32,102 bases of DNA. It comes from an uncultured bacterium. GTDB taxonomy: Bacteria; Verrucomicrobiota; Kiritimatiellia; CAIKKV01; CAIJXV01. The position numbers and the translations under genes were made by a program. The stretch lies in assembly GCA_903824675.1 (NCBI GenBank), contig CAIJXV010000012.1, positions 1 to 32,102 of the forward strand, read 5' to 3'. Shown one piece after another: positions 2,868-31,919 of this stretch (position 1 is its first letter; the number at the start of each line of letters is the position of its first letter). Below the pieces are notes generated by a model, which was not told where the DNA came from, searched no databases, and worked only from the letters and a program-made list of their open reading frames with translations.

Positions 2868-3372
2868 GTTGTTAGTTGCTGGTTGTTTAGTTGTTGCAGA
2901 AGTAATCAGCTCAACAATGAATTTTTTTTAGGTACGCCGGACATGGCGCATTTCTGAAGATATGCAATGTAACCATTCAGAAGCTTCCAGACCTCTTCGA
3001 TGCATTTTCTCAATTCAACATACCTGTCTTCGCTGAGAAATCCTTCGTCGCGAGCACAACCTAAATGGTCGAGCATTTCAGATAATGAACCCCGAGCTTG
3101 TCGGCAGAATTGACTGTTCTCCTGATGATGGTGCCGACCAAAACCCTCGGCAATGTTGGCCGTTATTGATCGGGACGCGCGCAACATCTGATCCTTCATT
3201 CGATAGGTTTCTTCTTTGGGCAACAATTTGCAGAACTGAGATATCTCAATCCGAAAAACAACACCTCTCTTATATACCTCAAGCTCTTCAAATGTCTTTA
3301 ACATCCCCATGTCCCCTCTTTCCCTTCCCAATATTCCCCAACAAACAACTTAACAACCTAACAACTTTCCCC
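2868..3372. repeat. Repeat A copies bracketing the four-helix-bundle gene
   Basis: A degenerate simple repeat of GTTGTTAGTTG/GTTGTTTAGTTG type lies at 2868-2900, and its inverted form (AACAACTTAACAACCTAACA) at 3340-3372. The pair encloses the four-helix-bundle gene. Related copies are at 961-1002, 1556-1582, 6907-6935, 27971-28034 (inside the Wzt gene) and 29158-29189. Confidence 0.7.
2906..3304 (-). CDS. Four-helix-bundle protein (S23 / 23S rRNA intervening-sequence protein family)
   Basis: A 132-aa protein beginning MLKTFEELEVYKRG and carrying the family's typical core: helix 1 with LEVYKR, then LRASRSITANIAEGFGR, then QFCRQARGSLSEMLDHL and a final helix (VWKLLNGYI). Homologues (IVP family) were first known from intervening sequences in 23S rRNA genes, and stand-alone copies abound in some environmental genomes; their function is unclear. 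I prefer the start at 3304 because GAGGGG lies about 8 nt upstream; 3310 is also possible. The gene is bracketed by inverted copies of simple repeat A (2868-2900 and 3340-3372), and nothing suggests a role in glycan synthesis. It looks like a passenger gene. Confidence 0.85.
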   Translation of the reverse strand: MLKTFEELEVYKRGVVFRIEISQFCKLLPKEETYRMKDQMLRASRSITANIAEGFGRHHHQENSQFCRQARGSLSEMLDHLGCARDEGFLSEDRYVELRKCIEEVWKLLNGYIAYLQKCAMSGVPKKNSLLS

Positions 3373-3380
3373 TTAGCTTC

Positions 3381-4547
3381 TCATCCCCGCTCCGTCCGCT
3401 CCCAACTCCCGGAAAGGCCTCCTTTGACAAATCGGAAGAAGCCGCAGAGAAAGGCCGCCTGGACCAGACAAAAATAGGTCCACGCCTGAATCGACGTCAG
3501 CCGGTGAATCCCCCGCGCACGAGCCCAACCCCCGATCGCCGCCAAAATAAATCCGATTCCTGTTCCGCCCAATACCAGACCATTTACCCAGCCTACCCCC
3601 CACAGAACGAACTGAACGACGGCCAGGCCGACCAGGGCCAGTAACAATAACGGCGTCACCCATCGCGCTACCTTATGAAGAGCAAACATGATGGCAAACC
3701 GGCCATAATGCGGGGACAGGCAACGCCGACACAGGCCTAAAGCTTGAAAGGCGCCACTCCCGATCCGAATCCGGCGGCGAAATTCCTCAGCCCAACCCGG
3801 CGGCGTTTCTTCCCACGCCACCGCTTGCCCCCAATAGACCATGCGGCGACCCTGTTCCCGAACTTTCATCCCAATCACAAAATCGTCGATCACCGTATCT
3901 GAAGGGAAGCCGGTCCAGAATAATTCCCGCCGAATGGCATAGATCGCTCCATTGGCGCCCAAGCAGGAATCGGCGCGACTTTCCGCCGCTTTCCATTCAT
4001 TTTCACGCGCCCAATAATCGAGTTCCCGTCCCGCTGAAGCGCTCCCTTCAAAAACCAGCCGGCCGCATACGCCACCGACCTGCGGATCCTGGAACGGAAC
4101 CCGTAATTCGTTCAACGCATTTGCCGCAAACCGAGTATTGGCATCGGTAAAGATCAGCAGAGCCGGCGGGGTGGGATCTTTGGCGATCTCCTCCACTAAC
4201 CGCTTAAGAACACCCGCCTTGCCCTGCCGGGTGAGACCGGGAATAAACCGCAGCACGGAATCCCGCTGGGCCAATTCCTTCAAGATGGCACCGGTGCCGT
4301 CACTCGAAACGTCGTCACCGATCCAAATCCGCCGAATTCCGGGAGCCGTTTGTTCTCGTAGATTGGCGATCCGTTCCCGAATACACCGCTCCTCATTATG
4401 CGCGGCGATTAAAATATCCGCCGATAACAAATGAGATACCGGCGGATAATGGTCCACATAGCGGGCCTGTCGACGAAGCCAGAGCGGATAACCCACCCAG
4501 GCGGTGGCGAGAACCAGCAGGATTAAGAGCATTAAGGCAGAGAGCAT
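3381..4547 (-). CDS. Membrane-anchored family 2 glycosyltransferase
   Basis: A 388-aa GT2 enzyme, GT-A fold. It has an N-terminal membrane segment (about 1-18), a nucleotide-binding start (ADILIAAHNEE), GDDVSSDGT, a DxD-type motif in IFTDANT, a GANGAIYAIRR acceptor-region motif and IDDFVIGMKV. An Arg-rich RRRIRIG motif stands where processive GT2 enzymes carry QxxRW. Two or three C-terminal membrane segments follow (about 295-380). This is the layout of inner-membrane glycosyltransferases acting on lipid-linked or secreted glycans; the sugar is not predictable. The first 173 bp, including the start codon, are duplicated at 6710-6882, so the upstream region here has been replaced by other repeat DNA. 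Confidence 0.9.
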   Translation of the reverse strand: MLSALMLLILLVLATAWVGYPLWLRRQARYVDHYPPVSHLLSADILIAAHNEERCIRERIANLREQTAPGIRRIWIGDDVSSDGTGAILKELAQRDSVLRFIPGLTRQGKAGVLKRLVEEIAKDPTPPALLIFTDANTRFAANALNELRVPFQDPQVGGVCGRLVFEGSASAGRELDYWARENEWKAAESRADSCLGANGAIYAIRRELFWTGFPSDTVIDDFVIGMKVREQGRRMVYWGQAVAWEETPPGWAEEFRRRIRIGSGAFQALGLCRRCLSPHYGRFAIMFALHKVARWVTPLLLLALVGLAVVQFVLWGVGWVNGLVLGGTGIGFILAAIGGWARARGIHRLTSIQAWTYFCLVQAAFLCGFFRFVKGGLSGSWERTERG

Positions 4548-4548
4548 A

Positions 4549-4973
4549 TTTCAGTGGAGCGGCATTAAGATCTCTCGATTTCGCCTGCCCTGAGTTTGTC
4601 GAAGGACTCGGGAAGACAACTTTTTCTGTCATTCCGAACGGAGCAGAGCGGAGTCGAGGAATCTCGCGTTTCAGTTGATACGTTAGCAAATGGATGAATT
4701 GGTTGACTCTAAACCCAGCAGCGGATGGGTCACTTCGTCGTGTCGACGAAATGTCACAGCCGCCCTCCTCTTCGAACTTATGTTTTATCTTTGAGGGACT
4801 CTGCGAGAAAGTCCCGTCGCCGAAAAGACGAAGCAGGTGAGTTATTCCTCCCTGTCTTGGCGCCTCGGGGGTGAAGCGGGAGATGTTGCCCGTTGAGTTA
4901 CACCGCGTGATCACCTTGAAAATGGATCTTCATGGAAGACGTCCCGCTGTCTGACTTCGGACCAGCACCCGTT
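4549..4973. repeat. Gene-free stretch with repeats H and E
   Basis: About 425 bp between the methyltransferase and the GT2 gene. Bases 4565-4670 contain CCTGAGTTTGTCGAAGG and CATTCCGAACGGAGC/GTCGAGGAATCTCG blocks (family H, also at 15188-15222 and 31124-31155). Bases 4695-4870 contain a decayed, inverted copy of repeat E, with the TTCGTCG...CGACGAAATG hairpin and a GACTCTGCGAGA end. No gene or clear promoter is seen. Confidence 0.6.
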
Positions 4974-6496: not shown

Positions 6497-7429
6497 TTCT
6501 ATTCCCTTAACTGGATTCTGTTCACACGATGTAGTGAATTTGCAATGCAAGGCAAGGCGCTTGGTGAACATATTGTCGCAGAATTATTACCTTGTCGAGT
6601 TTTGAATTGAGAGTCACCGCCTTGATCTTCCACCTCCGTCGCCTGAGGTGCACTTCCGACAAAGCAGACCCGAGCACCATGGGGAAAAGTCGGAGGTCTG
6701 TCTGCATAGCCCGAATACACCGCTCCTCATTATGCGCGGCGATTAAAATATCCGCTGATAACAAATGAGATGCCGGCGGATAATGGTCCACATAGCGGGC
6801 CTGTCGACGAAGCCAGAGCGGATAACCCACCCAGGCGGTGGCGAGAACCAGCAGGATTAAGAGCATTAGGGCAGAGAGCATAGCGCAGAGAGTGAGTCCG
6901 ATGGGAAGTTGTTGAGTTGTTAAGTTGTTGGTTGGCCGGGGGAGAGGCAGAGCGCGTAGAGCAGAGGATAGAATCTTTCTGTGTCCTACGACGAATGTCC
7001 TGACCGGCAATGGGTTATAAAGATCAAATCCACCTGTCATGCAGTTGAAAAATCAGCCACCGAAAACAGATCGCGATGTCCGGGGTGGGCCGGGCGGTCC
7101 CTCGCACGGCCTTCTCACCGCGGGGTTGGCATTGGGGCAACAAGGCGGAGATTTCTCACGCCAAGCCGCGGAGTTCGCCAAGGCAGAGGGTCCCGCGATG
7201 AGCGTCCACGAAACGTGGCCGGGTATCGCGCCACCGCTTGCACTTTCCTTTACGTCGTAATCAGAACAGGCACCGGACGCGTGATGCATCCCGCATCCAA
7301 GGCGGGACTTGTCGCGCGGCCTTCTTTTCGGCCTCTGTCCTCCGCGACCTCCGCGCCTCCGCGTGAAAAACAGAGCTTTGTCTCATCTTGGCACTCAGCC
7401 CTTTGCTCTCTGCCCACTCCTCCACTCCG
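6497..7429. repeat. Gene-poor stretch: GT2 fragment plus repeats A, B and D
   Basis: Bases 6497-6709 are unassigned and AT-rich and must hold the leader of the radical SAM gene; I see no strong promoter. After the GT2 fragment come repeat A (6907-6935), repeat B (6944-6970, AGGCAGAGCGCGTAGAGCAG), D copy 4 (7154-7367, from TCTCACGCCAAG to CCTCCGCGTGA) and another B-like stretch (7384-7440) that runs into the 3' end of the next gene. Confidence 0.65.
6710..6882 (-). pseudogene. Duplicated 5' fragment of the GT2 gene
   Basis: This 173-bp segment matches 4376-4548, the start of the intact GT2 gene, with only three mismatches by eye. It encodes the same first 57 residues (MLSALMLLILLVLATAWVGY onward to EERCIR), then runs into unrelated DNA. 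It therefore cannot make an enzyme. The two copies are direct repeats 2,334 bp apart and enclose the radical SAM/methyltransferase pair. Confidence 0.92.
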
Positions 7430-8539
7430 CTACCCCTTGCACACGGAGGCATAAACCCGCATATACCCGTCCACCATGGCCGCCAAAGAGTACCGGCTTT
7501 CCACCCGTCGTCGGGCTTCCTGTCCCATCTGTTCCCGTACCTGACGGTCACCCGCCAAACGCTCCAACGCCGTAACCAAGGCGTTTTCTTCTCCGCGAGG
7601 GACCACCCATCCGGTCACGCCATTCGCCACAATTTCAGCGTTCCCGCCAACATCGGTAACCACACACGGCAAACCGCAGGCCCCGGCTTCTAGCAACGAA
7701 ATGGACAATCCTTCCGTGTCTGACGACAAACAGAAAATATCCATCCTGCGCAGCCAGGGAAGCACATCCATTTGCATCCCGGTGATGCGGCATCGGTCCT
7801 TGATATTTAACCGGGCGATTTCGGCCTCAATTCGCACCCGATCCGAGCCGTCCCCCACCAACACCAGGAATCCGTCCAATCTTTCAGCCACCCGTGCGAA
7901 AGCTCGAAGAAGAAGGGGGTAATTTTTTTCAGCGGACAGGCGGCCCACACTGCCCATCACCACGGCTTTTTCTGAAATTCCCTCATGCACTGAGGATGCC
8001 CGGGAGGTTTCGATCGAGGGGGTGAAAACCGTCGTGTCGATTCCATTGGGAATGATCCAGGACTGTCGCTCCGACAGAAGACCCGCCCTCATCGCTGCCC
8101 GCTTTGTATCGTCCGACACCAGAATCACGGCGCGAGTTCGGAGCGCCAAAATCCGTCTCAAAAAACGGACTCGCCCCGTTTCCTGGTAGCCCTGTCCATG
8201 GGTCGTCGTCACTACCGGTATCCCGGTAAGCACCGATACCAACACCCCGTAGAGATGGGGGGACGCATTGTGAGCATGAATCACGGAAACGCGGTGAGCC
8301 AATACAAATCGGCGGATTTGGAATACCAGCTTCCAATCCACCACCCCCCATCCGGGGGTGCGCTGACCGGCGGACTTCGCGTCGGCCGATACGCGATCAT
8401 ATAGGTCCCCTGGCTCATCCAGGCAAAAAATGACCGATGGGACCCCTTGCTCTTTCAAGCCCGCAATCAGATCACAAACCATCCGCTCCAATCCACCGGT
8501 TTTAAGACTCGTCACGAGATGACAGATTTTAAGGTTCAT
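7430..8539 (-). CDS. Family 4 glycosyltransferase (GT-B)
   Basis: A 369-aa GT4 enzyme. The N-terminal Rossmann domain has SLKTGGLERM (11-20) and IHAHNASPH; the linker has IIPNGIDTTVF. The donor domain carries GSVGRLSAEKN (196-206), LVGDGSDR and the EX7E motif EGLSISLLE (276-284), then VVTDVGGN. This is the usual pattern for retaining sugar transfer to a glycan at the inner membrane. The gene ends in a B-type repeat, whose first bases appear to supply the TAG stop. No Shine-Dalgarno is evident; a TATACT sits 8 nt before the ATG but has no good -35. Confidence 0.92.
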   Translation of the reverse strand: MNLKICHLVTSLKTGGLERMVCDLIAGLKEQGVPSVIFCLDEPGDLYDRVSADAKSAGQRTPGWGVVDWKLVFQIRRFVLAHRVSVIHAHNASPHLYGVLVSVLTGIPVVTTTHGQGYQETGRVRFLRRILALRTRAVILVSDDTKRAAMRAGLLSERQSWIIPNGIDTTVFTPSIETSRASSVHEGISEKAVVMGSVGRLSAEKNYPLLLRAFARVAERLDGFLVLVGDGSDRVRIEAEIARLNIKDRCRITGMQMDVLPWLRRMDIFCLSSDTEGLSISLLEAGACGLPCVVTDVGGNAEIVANGVTGWVVPRGEENALVTALERLAGDRQVREQMGQEARRRVESRYSLAAMVDGYMRVYASVCKG

Positions 8540-9051
8540 TCTTGAAAAGTATAGGCCATGAGAGTTTCAGACAGGGCGAAAACTCGGATTAGCGTGACTC
8601 TGCGTGCAATATCTCTAGCTTATCTTCTCTCACAAGCGGGGAGGCTCTCGCAGAGTAGCACGGGGTTCTGATCCTTGTTCGCAGAGTGAAGAACGGCTGT
8701 GCCATTTCGTCGAAACGATGAAATGTCCCATCCGCCGCTTGTTTTAGAGTCAACGAGCCCTCACCAACTTGCTTTCATAGAACACGAAACGGGTGATTCC
8801 GCCTCCTGGCGGAATCGCACGGTTTACCCTGAGTAGTCCCGCCTTGCGGGACGAAGAAGGGCCCTGCTGGTACTCTCGTTTTAACTCAATCTGAACCCAG
8901 CGCAACTCTGCGTGCAATATCTCTCGTTTCACCTCCTTGGAGGCGGGGAGGCTCTCGCAGAGTTCCACTGAGTTCAGAAGCATGTTCTCAGAGTGAAGAT
9001 CGGCCGTGCCATTTCGCACCGGGCTGCGGAATGACGCGTCCACTGTTTGTT
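8540..9051. repeat. Repeat E block between GT4 and the GxxExxY gene
   Basis: About 510 bp of E modules in the order E1 (8596-8660), E2 (8690-8755), E3 (8770-8822), E4 (8825-8872), E1 (8903-8966), E2 (8995-9051). E1 is an AACTCTGCG...CGCAGAGTT inverted repeat of about 64 bp. E2 contains CATTTCGTCG/CGATGAAATG. E3 contains ATTCCGCCTCCTGGCGGAAT. E4 contains GTCCCGCCTTGCGGGAC. A short frame across the block (8750-9043) is repeat-derived and not called. Confidence 0.8.
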
Positions 9052-9480
9052 TTAAGTCCGATTCTTCGGGTCCATCTTGCCGTCTTGGTTGATCATCCGC
9101 ACGATTCCGTTTTTCAGGCTTATTTCATTGAAGTTCAGCAACAGCCCCAATGGTTTACAGCCCAGCCTTAAGTAGGTCAGAAGTTGTTTTTTGTGAATAT
9201 CTTTCAGTTCGTCCTGCGCCTTGAGTTCGATGACAACCATATCTTCAACCACTAAATCATACCGGTAGGCCACATCTGTCAATTTGACTCCGTCATATTC
9301 CACATAGGCCGGTTTTTCGCATTCATATCGGATGCCTTGTTGCGCCAACTCGATCGCCAAGCATTTACGATAGAAGGATTCCAAAAGCCCTGGCCCCAAT
9401 TTCGTGTGAACCCGATAGGCAGATTTCAATATTGCCGCGGAAAGACTATTGATCCGATTCCATTCTCCCGTCGTAATCAT
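9052..9480 (-). CDS. GxxExxY protein (PD-(D/E)XK nuclease-fold family)
   Basis: A 142-aa member of the GxxExxY family (PDDEXK_3 type). The name motif is GLLESFY (G31, E34, Y37). The putative nuclease core is YDLVVED with D75, IELKAQ with E85 and K87, and HKKQLLTYLRL with Q99 and Y103, so the catalytic-type residues are all present. Start 9480 is chosen because GGGAGA lies about 7 nt upstream; the frame is open further upstream, but only through repeat E. The TAA stop lies on the edge of an E2 module and an E3 module lies just upstream, so the gene occupies a position inside a repeat E unit. Biological activity of this family is not established. It is probably a passenger rather than a glycan gene. 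Confidence 0.88.
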   Translation of the reverse strand: MITTGEWNRINSLSAAILKSAYRVHTKLGPGLLESFYRKCLAIELAQQGIRYECEKPAYVEYDGVKLTDVAYRYDLVVEDMVVIELKAQDELKDIHKKQLLTYLRLGCKPLGLLLNFNEISLKNGIVRMINQDGKMDPKNRT

Positions 9481-9697
9481 GATGCATCTCCCTTTTCCCC
9501 TTGATGACTTGCTTGGAAAACAACCGGGACGGGTGATTCCGCCTCCTGGCGGAATCGCACGGCCCTGCTGGTACTCTCGTTTTAACTCAATCTGAACCCC
9601 GCGCAACTCTGCGTGCAATATCTTCCGCTTCATCTCCCCACAGGCGGGGAGTTTCTCGTAGAGTCCCTCTATGCAAAAAGAGCCATGTTCATGCTTG
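9481..9697. repeat. Repeat E modules between GxxExxY and AsnB-like genes
   Basis: An E3 module (9510-9562, ATTCCGCCTCCTGGCGGAAT core) and an E1 module (9603-9668), in the same orientation as the E block on the other side of the GxxExxY gene. The E1 copy ends about 30 bp from the stop codon of the asparagine-synthetase-like gene. Confidence 0.75.
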
Positions 9698-11575
9698 TCA
9701 GGTTTTACGATCGACGGTCGTAAGAATCTCGTCTTTAAGCCGCTGATGCGGAATTCCATCCAACCAGATTCTAGCCCACAACTCAAAGGACAGCGCTGAC
9801 CATAATAGATCGGAATGATTATGAGTTCCCTGCCGGTGCTCGTTGATTTTGGCGTCGAGGAGATTCTGCTTCCAAATCCCCCGGCTGGAGGCCCGCTCAT
9901 CACTCAGCCAATCCAGCAGACCTCCCAACCCGCGTGGATTGCGCATCCATGCGATCAGGGGCAGACTGAATCCGGTTTTCGGCCGGTCGAGAATCTCGTC
10001 TGGAATTCTCCCGCGAGCAATATGCCGCAGAACCGCTTTCCCCCGCCCGTTCTGAAAATGCTGATCAACCGGGATCTGTAGAACCTGTTCGACCAAATCA
10101 TGATCCAGAAAGGGCACCCGAGACTCCACCCCACTGGCCATGCTCATCCGATCCTGCCGTTGCAGCACGGAAACCAGATACGTGCGCAGATCCATGTCCA
10201 GAATCGCGGCCAACGGCAGGTGTTCGTTGATCGCCATTTGATTGCGATACGCATTATCGAGGGGTGAATAGGATTTCAACAATCCTCCCAGGCATTCATC
10301 CGAAACCCATTTACCGGCCTGGATCGCCATCTCTCGGGGCGATTTCCCCAATAGCGGCAGGATCCGGTCAAGACGACGAGGCCCAAAGGTTCGGGCCAGC
10401 CATCCGGTGATCGGCCAGTGTACTCCTCGTCCCCATTCGCCCAGGCGCCAGAGTCGGCGGTGCCACGAGTAACCGCCGAATAGCTCATCCGCCCCTTCTC
10501 CGGTCAACAACACCGTGACATGCTTCCGCGCCTCCCGGCATAACTTATACATCGGCAGGCTATTGGCATGGTTCAGTGGTTCGTCATGTAGATAGGCCCC
10601 CAACGCCAGATCTTCCAAAAATTCACGCTCCGTGTACGGGATGGGGTGGTGGATCGTATCCAGAGCTCGCCCAACCTGCCGGGCCCACACCGATTCATCT
10701 TTCTCGTAGCCGGCAAATCCCACTGAAAACGTATGCATGCGGTGATCGGTTTGATGCAAAGCCATCTGAGTGACCAGACTGGAATCCAACCCCCCGCTCA
10801 ACTGGCATCCCAAGGGAACATCGCTGACGAGTTGTCGAGCCACCGCCTGTTCGAGTTCCCGGGCCAATGCCGCCTCGTCCACCGGCGCTCCCGTCGATTT
10901 CCGTACGCGGGGTATCCAATATGCGCGATCCTCGATCGACAGGTTATCCAGATCAATGGACACCCGATGCCCGGGCAACACTTCCTGAATATCTTGAAAA
11001 AGCGTGTCACTCCCGCTCACGTAACGATATTGAAAAAACTCTTGAATCCGGTCCTGGCGTAATCCGCTTTTCCCGTTTTCTACCAAAGCCTTGATTTCGG
11101 ATGCAAACAACAAGGCGTCCGGCGTTCTTCGATAATAGAGCGGCTTGATGCCCAGCCGGTCCCGACACAACATCACTTTTCGCCGCCGTTGATCCAAAAA
11201 GGCAAAGGCATACATGCCATTCAGCTTGAGGAGGCCGGATTCGCCGTCTTCCTCCATCAAGTGCAGGATCACCTCACAATCCGAAGAGGAGACAAACCGA
11301 TGTCCCGCGTTCACCAAGGGTCGCCGCAAGTCACGGAAATTGTAAATCTCCCCATTGGAGGTGAGAACACACGACCCGTCCTCATTCACAAATGGTTGAC
11401 GGGCATTTATAGAGAGGTCAATCACCGACAGACGCCGCTGGCCGAATGCCCAGTTATCCCCGGCCACGACATGTTCATCATCCGGCCCGCGATGGGCCAA
11501 GGTACGACACATCCTTTTCACGCGCTCAATGGCCGCTTCACGAGGAAGGCCAATTATTCCACAAATCCCACACAT
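9698..11575 (-). CDS. asnB: Glutamine-dependent asparagine synthetase homologue
   Basis: A 625-aa AsnB-type enzyme. The N-terminal class II glutamine amidotransferase domain starts MCGICG with Cys2 as the nucleophile, and has LAHRGPD and SNGEIYN. The C-terminal ATP-pyrophosphatase domain has the PP-loop SGGLDSS (260-266), LLTGEGADELFGGY and SRVPFLDHDLVE. It has full length and intact motifs. In glycan loci such paralogues usually amidate a carboxyl group on a sugar or attached amino acid rather than serve general asparagine supply; this is an inference from context. AAGGA 6 nt before the ATG is a good ribosome binding site, and it lies at the edge of a repeat E array. Confidence 0.92.
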   Translation of the reverse strand: MCGICGIIGLPREAAIERVKRMCRTLAHRGPDDEHVVAGDNWAFGQRRLSVIDLSINARQPFVNEDGSCVLTSNGEIYNFRDLRRPLVNAGHRFVSSSDCEVILHLMEEDGESGLLKLNGMYAFAFLDQRRRKVMLCRDRLGIKPLYYRRTPDALLFASEIKALVENGKSGLRQDRIQEFFQYRYVSGSDTLFQDIQEVLPGHRVSIDLDNLSIEDRAYWIPRVRKSTGAPVDEAALARELEQAVARQLVSDVPLGCQLSGGLDSSLVTQMALHQTDHRMHTFSVGFAGYEKDESVWARQVGRALDTIHHPIPYTEREFLEDLALGAYLHDEPLNHANSLPMYKLCREARKHVTVLLTGEGADELFGGYSWHRRLWRLGEWGRGVHWPITGWLARTFGPRRLDRILPLLGKSPREMAIQAGKWVSDECLGGLLKSYSPLDNAYRNQMAINEHLPLAAILDMDLRTYLVSVLQRQDRMSMASGVESRVPFLDHDLVEQVLQIPVDQHFQNGRGKAVLRHIARGRIPDEILDRPKTGFSLPLIAWMRNPRGLGGLLDWLSDERASSRGIWKQNLLDAKINEHRQGTHNHSDLLWSALSFELWARIWLDGIPHQRLKDEILTTVDRKT

Positions 11576-12443
11576 AAATAGTCCTTATATCGGGCTTGAT
11601 CTTCGCACACAAGCGGGGAGGTTCTCGCAGAGTTCTACAAGGTTCTGATCCTTGTTCGCAGAGTGAAGATCGGCCGTCTCATTCCGCACCAGGCTGCGAA
11701 ATGAACCGTCCGCCGCTTGTTTTAGAGTTAACAACCCCTTGTCCACTTGGCTTCACAGAACGCGGGACGGGTGATTCCGCTGCCGCGGCGGGATCGCACG
11801 GCCCTGCTTTACTCTTGCTCTTAACTCGATCTGAACCCAGTGAAACTCTGCGTGCAATATCTCCGCTTCATCTTTCCCCAAGCGGGGAATTTCTCGCAGA
11901 GTCTCTCAAAGTTAAAGCATCAGTTCGCAGAGGGGGAACGGCCGTGCCATTTCGTCGAAACGATGAAATGTCCCATCCGCCGCTTGTTTTAGAGTCAACG
12001 AACCCTTGTTAACTTGACTGCATAGAACGCGGGTCGGGTGATTCCGCCTCCGCGGCGGGATCGCACGGCCCTGCTTTACTCTTGTTTAACTCAATCAGAA
12101 CCCAGCGCAACTCTGCGTGCAATATCTCTCGTTTCATCTCCTTGGAGGCGGGGAGGCTCTCGCAGAGTTTCACAGGGTTCAGAAACTTGTTCTCAGAGTG
12201 AAGAACGGCCGTGCCATTTCGCACTGGGCTGCGGAATGACCCCTCCACCGTTCGTTTAGAGTCAACGAACCATTGTTAACTTGGCTTCATAGAACGCGGG
12301 ACGGGTGATTCCGCTGCCGCGGCGGGATCGCACGGCCCTGCTTTACTCTTGTTTAACTCAATCTGAACCCAGCGCAACTCTGCGTGCAATATCTCCGCTT
12401 CATCTTTCCCCAAGCGGGGAATTTCTCGCAGAGTCTCTCAAAG
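11576..12443. repeat. Tandem array of repeat E (about 3.2 units of ~267 bp)
   Basis: E1 hairpins recur at 11588-11634 (truncated), 11845-11905, 12110-12172 and 12377-12440. E3 palindromes (GTGATTCCGC...) recur near 11769, 12040 and 12307, and E2 modules lie between them. The period is 266-271 bp and all units share one orientation. The last E1 ends a few bases from the stop codon of the PaaK-like gene. Several frames cross the array; they encode repeat-derived peptides and are not called. Confidence 0.88.
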
Positions 12444-14959: not shown

Positions 14960-15241
14960 ATGAAGATCAGAAAGGGAAACTCGCCGTCTTCGCCTCCGGG
15001 CGACAGGCACACTCTTACTGGGGCCCTCTCACTCCGGGCTTCATCGTATACGCGAAACGGGGAATTCTGCCTCCACGCGGGATCACACGGGTTACCCTGT
15101 GTAGTCCCGCCTTGCGGGACGAAGAAGGGCCTTGCTGGTACTCTTGTTTAACTCAATCTGAACCTAGCCCAACTCTGCGTGCAATATCTCCCGCTTCAGC
15201 GCTCCGCTCGGAATGACAATAAAAGACCCGCCGGAATGAAA
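14960..15241. repeat. Gene-free stretch with partial repeats E and H
   Basis: E3-like (15060-15090), E4 (15095-15140, GTCCCGCCTTGCGGGAC) and the left half of E1 (from 15173, AACTCTGCGTGCAATATCTC), which then switches to family H (GCTCCGCTCGGAATGAC). The E1 right half is missing, so this is a truncated chimeric copy. Confidence 0.7.
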
Positions 15242-19213: not shown

Positions 19214-19787
19214 AACAACACCTTTTTAAACAAGAGGAACTCATTATTGATGGGAAAAAGATTCACCACGGAGTCACCGAGCCGCTGAGTTGACCGTCAG
19301 GACAGATGGACCCGAAGAATCGGACTTAAAACAAACGCTGGACGGGTCATTCCGCAGCCCTGTGCGGAATGGCACGGCCGGCCTTCACTTTGAGAACAAG
19401 CTTCTGACCTCAGTGGAACTCTGCGAGATCCTCCCCGCTTGGTGAAGATAAGCTAGAGATATTGCACGCAGAGTCACGCCAGGTTTAGATCAAGTTAAGA
19501 CCAGAGTCTAAGCCGGGCCCTTCTTCGTCCCGCAAGGCGGGACTACACAGGGTAAACCGTGCGATTCCGCGTGGAGGCGAAATCCCCCATCCGGCGTTCA
19601 CATGAAGTCAAGTTGCCTCCTAAACCAAGCGGCGGATGGGTCATTTCATCGTTTCGACGAAATGGCACATCCGTTCCCCCCTCTGCGAACAAACATCTGA
19701 ACTTGGCGAACCTCTGCGAGAGATTCCCGCCTGTGGGCCGACGAAACGTCAGATGTAGCACGCAGAGGCACACTTGGCCAGAACGAT
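19214..19787. repeat. Gene-free stretch of inverted repeat E units with GxxExxY remnant
   Basis: About 570 bp. Bases 19262-19295 are a CACCACGGAGTCACCGAG simple repeat related to the 31.3-31.7 kb repeats. From 19303 on, E modules run opposite to the 8.5-12.4 kb copies: GxxExxY tail (19303-19329), E2 (19330-19378), E1 (19424-19477), E4/E3 (19525-19590), E2 (19625-19675), E1 (19710-19770). The last unit runs into the stop codon of the GT2 gene at 19788. Confidence 0.82.
19303..19329 (+). pseudogene. 3' remnant of a GxxExxY gene joined to repeat E
   Basis: AGATGGACCCGAAGAATCGG followed by ACTTAAAACAAAC matches, in reverse complement, the last codons and stop of the intact GxxExxY gene (9052-9085) and the first bases of the E2 module beyond it. 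The upstream part of the gene is absent. The same gene/repeat junction thus occurs at two loci in opposite orientation. Confidence 0.85.
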
Positions 19788-30659: not shown

Positions 30660-31250
30660 GGGAGGGAACGAAAAGGACGGTTTATAGGCGATAGGAGTTT
30701 AGGCAGTAGGTCGAACCGGTCGTGAGATGGAGCCGAGAGGATAGAGGGTAAGGAGCACGCGCTGCGCTTTGCCCGATGCTCCCTGCCTTCCCCGCCAACC
30801 ACTTTTCTGGCGGTTTCCGTCTGCCAATAGCAGACTCCGTCCCGGTGAATTATGCAGACGCACAATTCATTGCGTTCAATGCAAATTGAATCTACCATGA
30901 TCCTGAGGGGTGTGCAAGTTCTGATTTTCTAAATTCAGGGATGCAACAATCAGGTCGAGAGCGCCCATCCGCCTCGTGAAGGCCAGCTGCTTCGGCGGTC
31001 TCTCTCAGTGACTTCGTGCCTCTATGGTTATTGGGGAAGAAGGGTGATAGGCTGTAGGGGCTTAGTCGGTAGTTAAAAAGAGGTTTCAGGATTCGGGGTT
31101 CAGGCGGGAGATATCAGTCGGTCATGTCGAGCGCAGTCGAGACATCTCGCTTCCCCAGCGGGACTCGTCGCGCGTCCTCTGTTTTTTACCCATACCGAGT
31201 TCACTGATTAATTCAACGACTACGCGCTCTTGTGCTCTCCGGCTTCCCTC
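30660..31250. other. Leader and gene-free region upstream of the regulator
   Basis: No supported gene. It holds simple repeat G (30683-30712 and 31047-31075), a B-like stretch (30760-30790), the candidate promoter, a partial copy of the 287-bp repeat (about 30983-31032, GCTTCGGCGGTCTCTCTCAG) and family H (31124-31155). The frame at 30656-30898 is open, but its sequence is repeat-derived and low in conserved features. Confidence 0.6.
30863..30917 (-). promoter_or_regulatory. Candidate promoter and overlapping operator for the locus
   Basis: On the minus strand TTGCAC (30912-30917) and TAGATT (30889-30894) are separated by 17 nt, a plausible though imperfect sigma-70 promoter. Just downstream, CAATTCATTG-CGTT-CAATG plus AATTG (30863-30888) forms an imperfect palindrome across the expected start of transcription. 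That is a natural position for autorepression by the regulator. Function is inferred only. Confidence 0.4.
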
Positions 31251-31919
31251 AAGACCCAACGCGGACTGGATTGGCGCGCCGCGCGCGAAGACAGGCCGCT
31301 TCGGCGGTCTCTCTCAGTGACTTCGTGCCTCTGTGGTTAAACCTCTCTGCTTCTCCCTCGGACTTGTTCACCACCGATTCACCGAGGCACGGAGGATGAG
31401 AGAAAGACGTCTCACGCCCCCGATGCGGGCTGTCTTGTAAGGAAGCCTTTGCAATCCAGCCCGCGCGCTCTTTTGAGGGTACCGAGTTCACAGAATTTAC
31501 AGACGGATAGGTGGCTCCTGTGCACTCCTGCTCCTTCAAGACCCAACGCGGACTGGATTGGCGCGCCGCGCGCGAAGACAGGCCGCTTCGGCGGTCTCCC
31601 TCCGTGACTTCGTGCCTCTGGGGTGAAACCTCTCTGCTTCTCCCTCGGAATTGTTCACCACCGAGTCACTGAGGCACGGAGGATCAGAGGAATATGTCTC
31701 ACGCCCCCAAATGCGGGCCGTCTTGAAAGGAAGCCTTTGCAATCCTGCCCGCGCGCTCTTTTGAGGATACCGAGTTCACAGAATTTACAGACGGATAGGT
31801 GACTCCTGTGCTCTCTTGCTCCCTCAAGACCCAACGCGGACTGGATTGGCGCGCCGCGCGCGAAGACAGGCCGCTTCGGCGGTCTCTCTCAGTGACTTCG
31901 TGCCTCTGGGGTGAAACCT
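31251..31919. repeat. Tandem 287-bp repeat (about 2.3 copies)
   Basis: Units start AAGACCCAACGCGGACTGG at 31251, 31538 and 31826. Each has a GGCGCGCCGCGCGCG palindrome, the AGGCCGCTTCGGCGGTCT hairpin, a CAGTGACTTCGTGCCTCTG stretch and, in the complete units, its inverted relative CACCGAGGCACGGAGG. Units 1 and 2 are nearly identical; unit 3 diverges after about 31919. The minus-strand frames in each unit encode the same Arg-rich peptide and are taken as repeat by-products. Confidence 0.88.

Follow-up and report, generated by a model that had tools for sequence, protein, structure and literature searches.

RAYT/REPIN systems, which pair a Y1 tyrosine transposase with REP doublets (PMC3116915), and the intervening sequences (IVSs) of 23S rRNA, which contain an S23p/four-helix-bundle open reading frame (PMC4990558), are the closest described counterparts of the locus reported here. 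For the GxxExxY protein family (TIGR04256/PF13366), the open-licence full-text literature yielded no description of inverted arms or of gene-free derivatives, and nothing relevant on the arm words presented below. We analysed a 32,102-nucleotide stretch of DNA (the window) from an uncultured bacterium of the Kiritimatiellia, in which a GxxExxY gene sits inside a repeat unit, E, and compared it with the rest of its genome, with relatives and with GxxExxY loci from many phyla. The comparison suggests that the gene and its flanks probably form a small insertion element.

Results

A GxxExxY gene between the modules of a hairpin repeat

Region 8540-9697 of the window is flanked by genes for a glycosyltransferase (7430-8539, -) and an asparagine-synthase-like protein (9698-11575, -). 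It holds copies of E, a ~267-bp repeat, all on the + strand and in the order E1-E2-E3-E1-E2-[gene on -]-E3-E1, with the gene between modules E2 and E3. The features of this region, and the further repeat copies in the window, are as follows:

8592-8656, +: E1 hairpin module (ACTCTGCG..CGCAGAGT), first copy
8690-8750, +: E2 imperfect palindrome, gene-free unit A
8784-8824, +: E3 imperfect palindrome, gene-free unit A
8900-8964, +: E1 module of the gene-bearing unit
8997-9051, +: E2 palindrome adjoining the gene's stop codon; inverted relative of the E3 at 9523-9564
9052-9480, -: GxxExxY / PDDEXK_3 gene, 142 aa, predicted Cas4/lambda-exonuclease-like PD-(D/E)XK fold
9523-9564, +: E3 palindrome, upstream of the gene's start
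9601-9665, +: E1 module at the closing end of the gene-bearing unit
11586-12434, +: gene-free E units in tandem (267-bp period), flanked by two genes belonging to the same cluster
15050-15198, +: partial E unit (E3-E1)
19304-19774, -: two further E units, opposite strand
19304-19329, -: what remains of a GxxExxY gene, its stop and final codons, matching 9052-9077 at 26/26 positions
4702-4777, -: E2 fragment
1209-1416: inverted arm pair of a different type, without a gene (TCACGCAAAGCCGC.. / ..CTCTGCGCCTCTGCGTGA), with a related copy at ~138-344

These coordinates (8592-9665, E copies all +) bear out the order E1-E2-gene-E3-E1, with co-directional copies, given in a preliminary description of the locus. 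The order E1-E2-E3-E1 that it gave for gene-free units recurs in the 267-bp units at 11586-12434, in agreement with those at 8540-9697, and the gene's stop codon does lie at the E2 edge, with TAA (9054-9052, -) directly adjoining E2. Each of E1, E2 and E3 folds as a hairpin that is conserved among copies, and in E2 96% of the pairs are kept, with compensatory changes. E1 contains CGCAGAG.

Two features had gone unremarked in that description. E3 is an inverted copy of E2, with an inverted-match score of 32 within the gene-bearing unit and of 44 between the E2 at 19330-19390 and the E3 of the gene unit, against null maxima of 25 and 29. The gene thus has an inverted palindrome on either side, with E1 hairpins beyond them, and each gene-free E2-E3 unit forms an inverted doublet. 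Furthermore, the copy at 19304-19774 (-) ends in the 26-bp 3' end of the gene, which in unit 19304-19440 (-) is identical and has the same junction as in the gene-bearing unit, indicating either that a second gene-bearing unit was once present or that the two copies share ancestry.

E copies in the genome and in relatives

The E repeats are far above chance, both within the window (1e-32 to 1e-111) and as dispersed copies on other contigs (1e-26 to 1e-30). The genome (4.24 Mb, 124 contigs) has E-like matches at several further intergenic places and contains three GxxExxY genes, two of which are tied to E. The second of these, on contig C105, encodes a protein 73% identical to that of the window over 132 residues, and carries an E1-like arm on its upstream side and an E3-E1 module on its downstream side; an opposite orientation of this gene relative to E was considered and rejected, since E3 is inverted E2. 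The third, on contig C39, has its own, different flanking repeat and no E, and only the two copies of that repeat were found in the genome. The two Y1_Tnp genes of the genome, considered as RAYT-type drivers of E, were rejected on finding neither adjacent to it.

Among the 58 genomes searched, including this one, E is absent from the 57 relatives apart from one 34-bp match, and most of these relatives do have the GxxExxY family. The preliminary description had named a GxxExxY gene without adjacent E as evidence against its reading; the C39 gene, beside its different repeat, is such a case, and E is therefore not an obligate partner of the family. Its suggestion that these genes be checked for flanking E modules and for empty sites was borne out in its second part, as empty orthologous sites exist (below), and failed in its first, with E at two of the three genes of the genome and absent from the 57 relatives.

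Gene-free inverted arm pairs ~200 bp apart occur at several sites in the genome, two of them in the window. Those at ~138-344 and 1209-1416, and others on contigs C44, C58 and C93 of the same genome (G000), are of the type TCACGCAAAGCCGC.. / ..CTCTGCGTGA, with a partly conserved core of ~190 bp. Elsewhere in the window, a 287-bp unit is repeated three times in tandem at 31130-31919 and ends with arm-like CTTCGTGCCTCTGTGGTTA words, and a 173-bp duplication (4376-4548 and 6710-6882, 98% identical) repeats the start of a glycosyltransferase gene as a truncated copy.

The protein is a predicted nuclease under purifying selection

By sequence, the window protein is a clear member of the PDDEXK_3/GxxExxY family and a predicted nuclease, matching PF13366 at 2.7e-36 (124.9 bits, curated cut-off 22) and TIGR04256 at 2.2e-37 (128 bits, cut-off 35). 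The GxxExxY motif is G31/E34/Y37 and the PD-(D/E)XK core is D75, E85 and K87. Across 106 relatives E34, D75 and K87 never vary, and residue 85 is E in 102 of them and D in the other 4, which confirms the superfamily membership and core residues (E34, D75, E85, K87) named earlier; Q99 and Y103 are nearly invariant among the 106 proteins. An AlphaFold2 model (mean pLDDT 93) has Cas4 SSO0001 as its closest solved fold (probability 1.00, E 4e-3) and lambda exonuclease next, with no structural match below E 0.001. PADLOC gave only a weak Cas4 match, PHROGs no match to the window protein, and a sequence search of the PDB only an endonuclease I at E 0.5. The coding sequence is under purifying selection, with dN/dS of 0.05-0.06 among copies at the aroA site described below and 0.08 for the window copy against the C105 copy; in three of these four comparisons synonymous sites are close to saturation.

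Inverted flanks recur across the family

We compared the 200 nt upstream with the 200 nt downstream of each gene, taking a local score of at least 32 as an inverted flank. Across many phyla, 77 of 128 GxxExxY loci had inverted flanks, compared to 5 of 481 control ORFs: 25/36 in the own genome and relatives, against 4/367 other ORFs in the same stretches; 11/15 further loci; and 41/77 usable loci from a scan of GTDB species representatives, against 1/114 controls (MWU 6e-17 and Fisher 4e-19 relative to 4/367 and 1/114). The control ORFs and neighbour orientations come from a simple ORF caller, which makes those numbers approximate. The scan covered 80 loci from Chloroflexota, Planctomycetota, Acidobacteria, Bacteroidota, Proteobacteria, Spirochaetota, Cyanobacteria, an archaeon and others, picked by the motifs of one subfamily and therefore not a random sample. 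About 40% of loci lack inverted flanks above the threshold, and part of these misses, read by eye, are cases where the ORF runs through the arms (L130, for example). Direct repeats are enriched as well (17/77 vs 3/114), indicating that genes placed between repeat modules, as in the window, recur. It is the inverted-arm layout, not E, that is general in the GxxExxY family, and its presence in many bacterial phyla suggests that the family probably marks a widespread, little-described small inserted DNA element.

A similar layout was seen around a different gene. The window has a four-helix-bundle gene at 2906-3331 (-; 23S_rRNA_IVP, E 1.2e-30) with inverted GTTGTTAAGTTGTTG-type arms on both sides, and such genes in relatives have inverted flanks, made of other short words, at 15 of 29 loci. 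One high-scoring control ORF (in L062) sits where a four-helix-bundle gene is.

Arm sequences are coupled to the protein

The arms of the main subfamily consist of words in tandem with a period of ~9 nt (CRCRGAG and relatives), mostly 0-20 nt from the start or stop codon. The words are about twenty-fold enriched in the flanks (1.4 per 200 nt vs 0.07 elsewhere), in sense upstream and antisense downstream, and the best partner of an upstream arm is its own downstream arm in 30 of 41 loci. CAGGAT words go with one protein subfamily and CRCRGAG-like words with another; indeed, arm similarity correlates with protein identity (Mantel r 0.31, p 0.001). Genomes with the gene have 9.8 arm word pairs per Mb, compared to 4.9 in those without (p 0.008), and the gene-less genomes are still above a reversed-pattern control, showing that the dependence on the gene is not strict. 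One relative (G025) is an extreme expansion, with 360 word pairs in 2.5 Mb and only two GxxExxY matches. Arm mismatches comprise 76 G.U and 86 A.C (p 0.48), and this absence of a G.U bias favours a role for the arms at the DNA level.

Filled, shortened and empty orthologous sites

Insertion history was followed in 14 genomes of one genus at two operon junctions. Between trpE and trpG, one genome (G032) has a full element, two (G061 and G067) have shortened elements in which the gene ends are kept and the core is deleted, and at least six others have nothing. Upstream of aroA, three genomes (G055, G066 and G068) have the full element, one (G063) a relic of the right arm, and most of the remaining genomes an overlapping stop-start (TAATG). 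Presence and absence within one genus could partly reflect vertical loss. In genus g26 (L210, L212 and L213), trpE-trpG spacers of 96-167 nt have no recognisable arms, the site elsewhere being empty or filled; these spacers are possibly older relics or other inserts.

Among 51 elements, target-site duplication did not exceed the swapped-flank background (mean longest shared word 4.06 vs 3.80). The G032 trpE-trpG insertion has AGAGAAAAAAATG on both flanks, which may be due to chance.

The idea that the gene-bearing unit is the complete form and the gene-free units are derivatives gains from the full, gene-deleted and empty orthologous sites, together with the gene remnant in another E copy and the gene-free arm pairs.

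Discussion

We consider it fairly probable that the locus represents a small insertion element, a nuclease gene between inverted palindromic arms, and that the gene-free E units are gene-deleted or non-autonomous derivatives of it in the form of inverted doublets. Its putative mobility is likely driven by the GxxExxY nuclease, which would bind or cut the arms as double-stranded or extruded palindromes. A homing-like route, as raised in the preliminary description, would require the nuclease to cleave the empty allele at a specific site, and empty sites do exist. Insertion or copying would then be promoted by repair, without target duplication, as is thought for RAYT transposases acting on REPINs, and the tandem E array may have grown through recombination between E1 copies. 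A broader claim, which we put forward tentatively, is that GxxExxY genes could define a class of autonomous elements present throughout the prokaryotes. A Cas4/lambda-exonuclease-like PD-(D/E)XK nuclease would mobilise them via inverted word-repeat arms, and they would spawn MITE/REPIN-like gene-free repeats. If true, RAYT/REPIN would have a counterpart built on a nuclease, and much of the intergenic repeat DNA in environmental genomes that lacks an explanation would stem from these elements. A nuclease family that is common but an orphan would be placed in a biological context, as the protein encoded within a repeat element, and a class of hairpin repeats frequently met in intergenic DNA would gain a candidate driver.

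The arms could instead act in RNA, if the element were a selfish insertion whose complementary arms fold in the transcript and are cut by RNase III, leaving an operon insertion harmless, as for the 23S rRNA intervening sequences. The plan is the same, an ORF between complementary ends, which the four-helix-bundle (23S IVP) genes of relatives share at 15 of 29 loci, and in the Coxiella IVS a terminal stem of 28 bp is the substrate of RNase III (PMC4990558). Insertions also lie between co-directional genes in 49 of 78 cases, relative to a baseline of 140 of 296 that is approximate because of the simple ORF caller. However, the arm mismatches give no sign of sense-RNA pairing, no locus examined by eye is in rRNA and the window has no Rfam match, and we regard this explanation as unlikely. 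Less likely still is a model in which another transposase, such as a Y1 RAYT, moves E as an ordinary REPIN/MITE family and the nuclease gene only hitch-hiked into one E unit. The genome does have two Y1_Tnp genes and a GxxExxY gene without E, and arm words are present also in gene-less genomes, but both Y1 genes lack E as well as inverted flanks, whereas two of the three GxxExxY genes have them, and the same layout recurs with lineage-specific arms in the family across phyla.

Strong purifying selection and the weak Cas4 similarity would also fit a small nuclease that benefits the host in repair or defence, with flanking palindromes that merely regulate its expression; this would leave the dispersed gene-free doublets, the empty sites and the coupling of arm words to protein unexplained, and we think it improbable. 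A classical insertion sequence that has terminal inverted repeats and moves by means of a cut-and-paste nuclease would account for the inverted ends, the single ORF and the empty sites. We find it very hard to reconcile with the lack of target-site duplication above background, with arms that are very unequal in length and lie 0-150 nt from the ORF, and with a predicted fold that is Cas4/lambda-exonuclease-like and not DDE.

Comparison with known systems

The insertion element that we favour resembles Cas4 (SSO0001) and lambda exonuclease in the predicted fold and D..ExK..QxxxY core of its protein, which at 142 aa is, however, much shorter, and the window has no linked CRISPR genes. Like the 23S rRNA intervening sequences, it has a small ORF between complementary ends, lies in transcribed DNA and is scattered in its presence. 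Unlike them, the window element is intergenic, with protein-coding neighbours and not in rRNA, there is no sign that its arms are kept as RNA stems, and its protein is nuclease-fold. With RAYT/REPIN it shares a conserved single-copy gene with palindromes on both sides, inverted doublets that lack the gene and are scattered between other genes (E2/E3 are inverted and the dispersed E copies intergenic), and lineage-specific repeats coupled to the protein. In contrast to RAYT/REPIN, the protein here is a PD-(D/E)XK nuclease and not a Y1 HUH enzyme, no Y1 gene stands beside the palindromes, and the arms of most families are tandem ~9-nt words where REPs are GTAG/CGTC-tagged. The element thus departs from what defines either system, while appearing closest in function to RAYT/REPIN and resembling the 23S IVS in plan, and on our reading it may work as RAYT/REPIN does, with a Cas4/lambda-exonuclease-like nuclease in place of the transposase.
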